35,116 nucleotides of DNA from Tepidibacillus decaturensis (GTDB lineage Bacteria; Bacillota; Bacilli; Tepidibacillales; Tepidibacillaceae), in NCBI RefSeq assembly GCF_001561915.1, contig NZ_LSKU01000001.1, positions 969,724 through 1,004,839 of the forward strand, given 5' to 3'. The stretch's first letter is position 1; every line of letters starts with the position of its first letter. The notes beneath the pieces are model-generated. The model was given only the letters and a program-made list of their open reading frames with translations, did not search any database and was not told the DNA's origin. The position numbers were made by a program, and so were the translations under genes. Shown here piece after piece: positions 687-3,681 of this stretch.

Positions 687-715
687 TTGCATCCTATTGC
701 TAATTATGGTATATT
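687..715 (+). promoter_or_regulatory. Sigma-A promoter for rpsB-tsf
   Basis: A TTGCAT -35 box (687-692) and TATATT -10 box (710-715) are separated by exactly 17 bases. The predicted start at about 721-723 lies just before a 5-bp hairpin and the structured leader, and over 100 bases upstream of rpsB. The -10 box is good, the -35 box moderate. Confidence 0.55.
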
Positions 716-720
716 AAATC

Positions 721-820
721 TCGGTGTTAAAAACACACGCTTACCAATTTAATTACGGGTGCTATATGATTAGTTGTAATTAAAAATGAAGTAAGCGGAG
801 GAAAAAAACCAAAGGAGGTG
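721..820 (+). promoter_or_regulatory. Structured 5' leader of rpsB, possible S2 autoregulatory element
   Basis: Three stems are visible. GTGTT (724-728) pairs with AACAC (732-736) at the predicted transcript 5' end. CGCTTAC (738-744) pairs perfectly with GTAAGCG (791-797). Nested inside, TTTAATTAC (748-756) pairs perfectly with GTAATTAAA (776-784), leaving an internal loop (CAA opposite AATGAA) and a 19-base apical loop. The strong ribosome site AAAGGAGGTG (811-820) follows directly. Ribosomal protein S2 represses its own operon through a leader in gammaproteobacteria; that this leader does the same is inference. Confidence 0.5.

Positions 821-2400: not shown

Positions 2401-3681
<1,281 letters not shown>

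Follow-up and report, generated by a model that had tools for sequence, protein, structure and literature searches.

A probable ribosomal protein S2 leader RNA of the t44/rpsB motif family upstream of rpsB in Tepidibacillus decaturensis and other Bacillota

Autorepression by ribosomal protein S2 through the leader of its own gene, rpsB, is established in Escherichia coli (PMC10931766, PMC2704228). There, translation of rpsB-tsf is repressed via the leader when S2 is in excess, with S1 assisting; the ribosome site is said to lie outside the operator, and S1 is needed as the partner of S2 (PMC10931766). This E. coli leader is t44 (Rfam RF00127), annotated in NC_000913.3 as tff, "putative small RNA T44". 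An "rpsB motif" was reported in "some Firmicutes" by Meyer et al. (2009), with a J2-3 pseudoknot of three pairs to the 3′ extension and no obvious resemblance to the S2 site of 16S rRNA (PMC2704228). The Bacilli leaders for L10, L20, S4 and S15 are likewise autoregulatory 5′ leaders (PMC4538822, PMC6097659, PMC7247131), whereas the S2 leader has another fold and another ligand. The L10 leader of Bacillus subtilis, according to the title of PMC4538822, acts by transcription attenuation, whereas the leader described below has no terminator.

Architecture of the rpsB leader

The window, by which we mean the whole stretch of DNA analyzed (35,116 nucleotides of T. decaturensis), carries rpsB preceded by two nested inverted repeats. 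CGCTTAC (738-744) and GTAAGCG (791-797) are perfect reverse complements of each other, as are TTTAATTAC (748-756) and GTAATTAAA (776-784). When folded computationally, RNA of 719-827 reached −26.2 kcal/mol, compared with −16.2 ± 3.0 kcal/mol for shuffled sequences (z = −3.4; one of 200 shuffles did as well), and the minimum-energy fold includes both stems, P1 and P2, as well as a short third hairpin, P3 (Table 1), whose length varies among relatives. The two stems proposed in the initial annotation have been borne out: their coordinates are exact, their fold beats shuffles, and they show compensatory changes across Bacillota. The 19-base apical loop described there is not open; it contains J2/3 (GGGUG) and P3 (762-764 with 771-773). 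Parts beyond the two stems first noted are P3, a pseudoknot (758-760 with 808-810) and a 5′-terminal hairpin, P0. The element reaches 5′ to ~722 and 3′ to the pseudoknot strand at 810.

Table 1. Features of the rpsB leader region (window coordinates)
Feature	Position	Strand	Details
Predicted sigma-A promoter of rpsB	687..715	+	-35-like TTGCAT 687-692, 17-nt spacer, extended -10 TGGTATATT 707-715
P0, 5′-terminal hairpin GGUGU..ACACA	722..737	+	Conserved ACACACG leads into P1
P1 5′ strand CGCUUAC	738..744	+	Partner 791-797; all 7 pairs vary on both sides, 80 loci
P2 5′ strand UUUAAUUAC	748..756	+	Partner 776-784; all 9 pairs vary on both sides
J2/3, conserved GGGUG	757..761	+	Invariant or covarying with 3′ extension; GGU 758-760 is pseudoknot 5′ strand
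P3 short hairpin CUA/UAG	762..773	+	762-764 with 771-773; 3 of 4 consensus pairs vary on both sides
P2 3′ strand GUAAUUAAA	776..784	+	Sequence, covariation
Internal loop, 3′ side, conserved	785..790	+	Consensus AGAUGA in alignment
P1 3′ strand GUAAGCG	791..797	+	Sequence, covariation
Conserved GGAGG at P1 end	797..801	+	Nearly invariant in alignment; E. coli GUGGAGG
Pseudoknot 3′ strand ACC	808..810	+	Covariation with GGU 758-760; 3-bp Firmicutes pseudoknot in PMC2704228
rpsB ribosome binding site AAAGGAGGUG	811..820	+	Sequence; GGAGG core 3 nt past pseudoknot strand
rpsB, ribosomal protein S2, 232 aa	828..1526	+	Open reading frame; 59 of 60 further Bacilli genomes gave hits of 69-94% identity

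The rpsB transcript is predicted from the sequence to start near 722-723, upstream of 738. The promoter at 687-715 was not listed by a promoter pattern scan, because that scan demands four of six matches in the -35 box. Of 168 loci in relatives, 97 have a -10 box 7 nt before the P0 hairpin, the remainder having other -10 distances or ambiguous matches to the simple pattern used. Among loci with a -10, it is preceded by TG in 114. Given the placement of the -10 here and in relatives, both stems very probably lie within the rpsB transcript. The initial annotation placed them between a predicted start and the ribosome site, and the start read from the sequence lies upstream of 738.

Of 165 leaders, 90% have the P0 hairpin, and its mean energy is −3.0 kcal/mol as against −1.15 kcal/mol for shuffled sequences. 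Its sequence differs in some lineages (e.g., GGCU..AGCC and GUUGC..GCAAC), and E. coli has a counterpart, GUGUAACAACACACACG, at the equivalent place. P0 falls outside the paired portion of the t44 model, and support for it as a conserved feature is moderate.

The GGAGG at 797-801 resembles a Shine-Dalgarno sequence, yet it is located ~30 nt from the start codon, and the actual Shine-Dalgarno sequence is that at 811-820. Relatives carry the variants GGAAG, GGCGG and GGUGG at this place, which argue against simple pairing with the anti-Shine-Dalgarno sequence.

Relationship to t44 and the rpsB motif

A scan of the whole window against Rfam at curated cut-offs gave no match. In a permissive search with 301 nt, the t44 model aligned from end to end (positions 1-95) at 716-807 with 31.4 bits and an E-value of 4.5e-5 against all 4227 families, a score below the Rfam gathering cut-off of 44 bits, which we take to be a database convention and no biological feature. 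Taken alone, the empty scan at curated cut-offs would have pointed to a new RNA family. The t44 model likewise scores above its cut-off in none of 151 Bacilli genomes, while the E. coli control passes. In the other direction, our Bacilli-trained model, searched against the 1.3-kb E. coli rpsB locus, retrieves the rpsB leader with 42.7 bits (E = 9e-9). Because of the E-value of 4.5e-5 and the reciprocal match in E. coli, we attribute the sub-cut-off score to the limits of the model rather than to missing homology; the window leader and the E. coli rpsB leader are homologous.

ACACACG, GGGUGC and GGAGG are common to the window leader, t44 and E. coli, and the window leader shares with t44 both the order of its parts (ACACACG, P1, P2, GGGUGC, P3, GGAGG) and its location upstream of rpsB. 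The pseudoknots differ, in that the E. coli one (GGGGU/ACCCC) would comprise 5 bp and lie farther from the ribosome site, whereas the one in the window has 3 bp and lies 3 nt from the GGAGG core. With the motif of Meyer et al., the window leader has in common a long paired element, P3 and the three-pair J2-3 pseudoknot; what that paper calls P2 is absent or very short in Firmicutes, as it is here, and its text makes no mention of a 5′ hairpin corresponding to P0 (PMC2704228). The initial annotation knew of no described Bacillales counterpart of this shape; the suggestion that none has been described is mistaken, given the 2009 report of the motif in "some Firmicutes" (PMC2704228).

Covariation and distribution across Bacillota

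Of 61 genomes of the class, 60 yielded an rpsB locus, and we read the upstream regions. A first covariance model, built from 23 of the class rpsB upstream regions, matched 58 of the 60 leaders, including 35 of the 37 outside the training set; in the two that it missed (L041 and L044), the landmarks are visible by eye. A second model matched, at E-values up to 1, every one of the 80 named loci in another collection, which comprised Bacilli (Paenibacillus, Brevibacillus, Halobacillus, Staphylococcus and others) and Clostridia, the weakest match (L127, E = 0.24) being unconvincing. None of these 80 leaders was entered by hand into model training, and some may share species with the training genomes.

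Across the 80 leaders, standard pairs fill 95.0% of pair cells, compared with 60.6% in shuffled alignments and ~45% with the partners slid; since these leaders had been aligned by fitting to the structure, the counts lean towards it. The covariation score is 0.894 on the same alignment, as against 0.232 when shuffled and 0.06-0.11 (at most 0.108) with slid partners, and 19 of the 20 pairs vary on both sides. The fitting bias is immaterial, because of the size of the effect and because a plain MAFFT alignment gave a like result, with double changes in 18 of 20 pairs. The compensatory changes that the initial annotation had proposed to seek in both stems, using a covariance model of rpsB upstream regions, are found at all 16 pairs of P1 and P2, each of which varies on both sides.

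In the pseudoknot, GGU at 758-760 pairs with ACC at 808-810, just 5′ of the Shine-Dalgarno sequence. A complement to the leader's own J2/3 triple occurs in its 3′ extension in 169 of 175 leaders, compared with 147.5 ± 2.4 when the extensions are swapped, and none of 5000 extension shuffles reached 169 of 175, related sequences being treated as independent. Because the pseudoknot lies outside the model, this test is independent of model fitting. Where J2/3 reads AGU, it is matched by ACU (7 of 7), and where it reads UGU, by ACA (3 of 3); several GUU leaders pair with AAC, some of them ambiguously, as AACC holds both complements. Of the 145 GGU leaders, 142 have ACC itself in the extension, compared with 11 of the 30 others. 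The 3′ strand in relatives is mostly located 0-8 nt from the Shine-Dalgarno core. With only 3 bp, the window pseudoknot would be weak without protein.

When whole genomes were searched with the second model at E-values up to 0.01, 186 of 200 from the class and 177 of 199 from the phylum had one match apiece; the T. decaturensis genome has a single match (E = 4.9e-19). The element ends just 5′ of rpsB in the window and at every rpsB locus inspected. Among genomes lacking a model match, most of 22 upstream regions keep the landmarks by eye (one, L205, is an uninformative contig end). At four loci (L210, L212, L224 and L225) the leader looks missing, cut down or highly degenerate; L225 seems to retain just P1 and GGAGG, and these lineages may use a different control.

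The family, its occurrence in Firmicutes and the 3-bp pseudoknot have been known since 2009 (PMC2704228). Whereas that report speaks of "some Firmicutes", the element is found here in about nine-tenths of the sampled genomes of the phylum. What is added is this near-universal occurrence in Bacillota, a part of which may already be covered by Fu et al. (2013), together with the pseudoknot covariation, the P0 hairpin, the distance between the element and the ribosome site, and the finding that the Rfam model misses these leaders.

Proposed control of rpsB and the downstream genes

We consider it likely that this is an S2 leader RNA of the t44/rpsB motif family, in which a pseudoknot held by S2 represses translation. 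S2 is taken as the ligand because of the homology to the E. coli leader, and control is probably exerted at translation, because the leader has no terminator: a pattern scan of the sequence between the rpsB promoter and the start codon turned up no hairpin that, followed by a T run, would resemble a terminator. The location of the pseudoknot beside the Shine-Dalgarno sequence suggests occlusion by the S2-held fold. According to this proposal, the rpsB mRNA would begin near 722, and P0, P1, P2, P3 and the pseudoknot (758-760/808-810) would form within the ~90 nt that follow. When S2 exceeds the assembling 30S subunits, free S2 would bind the leader and hold it in the pseudoknotted form, which would keep the 30S subunit off the adjoining Shine-Dalgarno sequence (811-820), so that rpsB would be repressed and tsf too, via coupling or mRNA decay. 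The autoregulation by S2 suggested in the initial annotation is strongly supported by the two-way homology with E. coli, the covariation and the strict rpsB context; for Bacillota it stays putative, and our literature search found no experiment on S2 binding to, or repression via, the leader in any member of this phylum.

In many Bacillota, S1 is not firmly part of the ribosome, and since it is needed in E. coli, the ligand complex or the blocked step may be different in Bacillota. One tentative possibility, to which we give less credence, is that in Bacillota S2 alone, without S1, locks the short pseudoknot onto the Shine-Dalgarno sequence, while the operator in E. coli lies away from it and needs S1, and that in both the upstream GGAGG might act as a standby site for the ribosome or as a decoy.

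Several other explanations were considered. The leader could promote rpsB translation or mRNA stability, with the 5′ hairpin acting against decay and GGAGG as a standby site, the response to S2 having been lost in Bacillota. The 5′-terminal hairpin in 90% of leaders, the conserved upstream GGAGG and the lack of an S2 test in Bacillota in our literature search are all compatible with this. We nevertheless regard it as unlikely, given that the pieces in common with E. coli (ACACACG, GGUGC, GGAGG and the pseudoknot) are those of the S2-responsive element and that a purely stabilizing leader would need no covarying pseudoknot beside the Shine-Dalgarno sequence. A ligand other than S2, such as EF-Ts (encoded downstream), a complex of S2 with another protein, or a metabolite, is distinctly improbable. 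While tsf comes after rpsB, and Meyer et al. place a few copies before tsf (PMC2704228), the homologous RNA of E. coli has been shown to respond to S2, and all copies inspected here precede rpsB.

Control of termination upstream of rpsB would fit a mechanism common among Bacilli leaders, such as that for L10 in B. subtilis (PMC4538822). It was rejected as very improbable indeed, the leader having no terminator and its 3′ extension being A-rich, not T-rich, in relatives. As for chance stems in an A+T-rich leader, nothing beyond the low G+C content speaks for them; only one in 200 shuffles folds equally well, the homology crosses phyla, and the massive covariation refutes this explanation, whose probability is negligible.

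If the leader is the S2-responsive element that we favor, S2 autoregulation by one homologous leader probably extends to nearly all Bacillota and is shared with Proteobacteria, and few ribosomal-protein leaders span these two phyla in this way. Present Rfam annotation overlooks the S2 leader across Bacilli. Because its pseudoknot adjoins the Shine-Dalgarno sequence, the leader of Bacillota would offer a compact system for testing repression by S2.

Downstream, rpsB is followed by open frames read as tsf, pyrH and frr. Between rpsB and tsf, at 1533-1575, there is a strong hairpin resembling an intrinsic terminator (GAAGGGTGGCCTAAGGGTGTTATACCCTTTACCACCCTTTT, ~−22 kcal/mol), and of 110 Bacillota loci, 97 have a hairpin resembling a terminator after rpsB. 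Its sequence, beyond the stem alone, is often strikingly conserved, as AAGGGTGG or as GGTGATAAG...CTTATCACC. In Staphylococcus aureus, the terminator after rpsB is leaky (PMC4608709). Farther downstream, at 2401-3681, pyrH (UMP kinase) and frr (ribosome recycling factor) form a single open frame of 426 aa with no stop between them; the two genes may truly be fused, or the frame may result from an indel or a misassembly close to where they join (~3110-3125). In relatives, a stop is present between the two genes.
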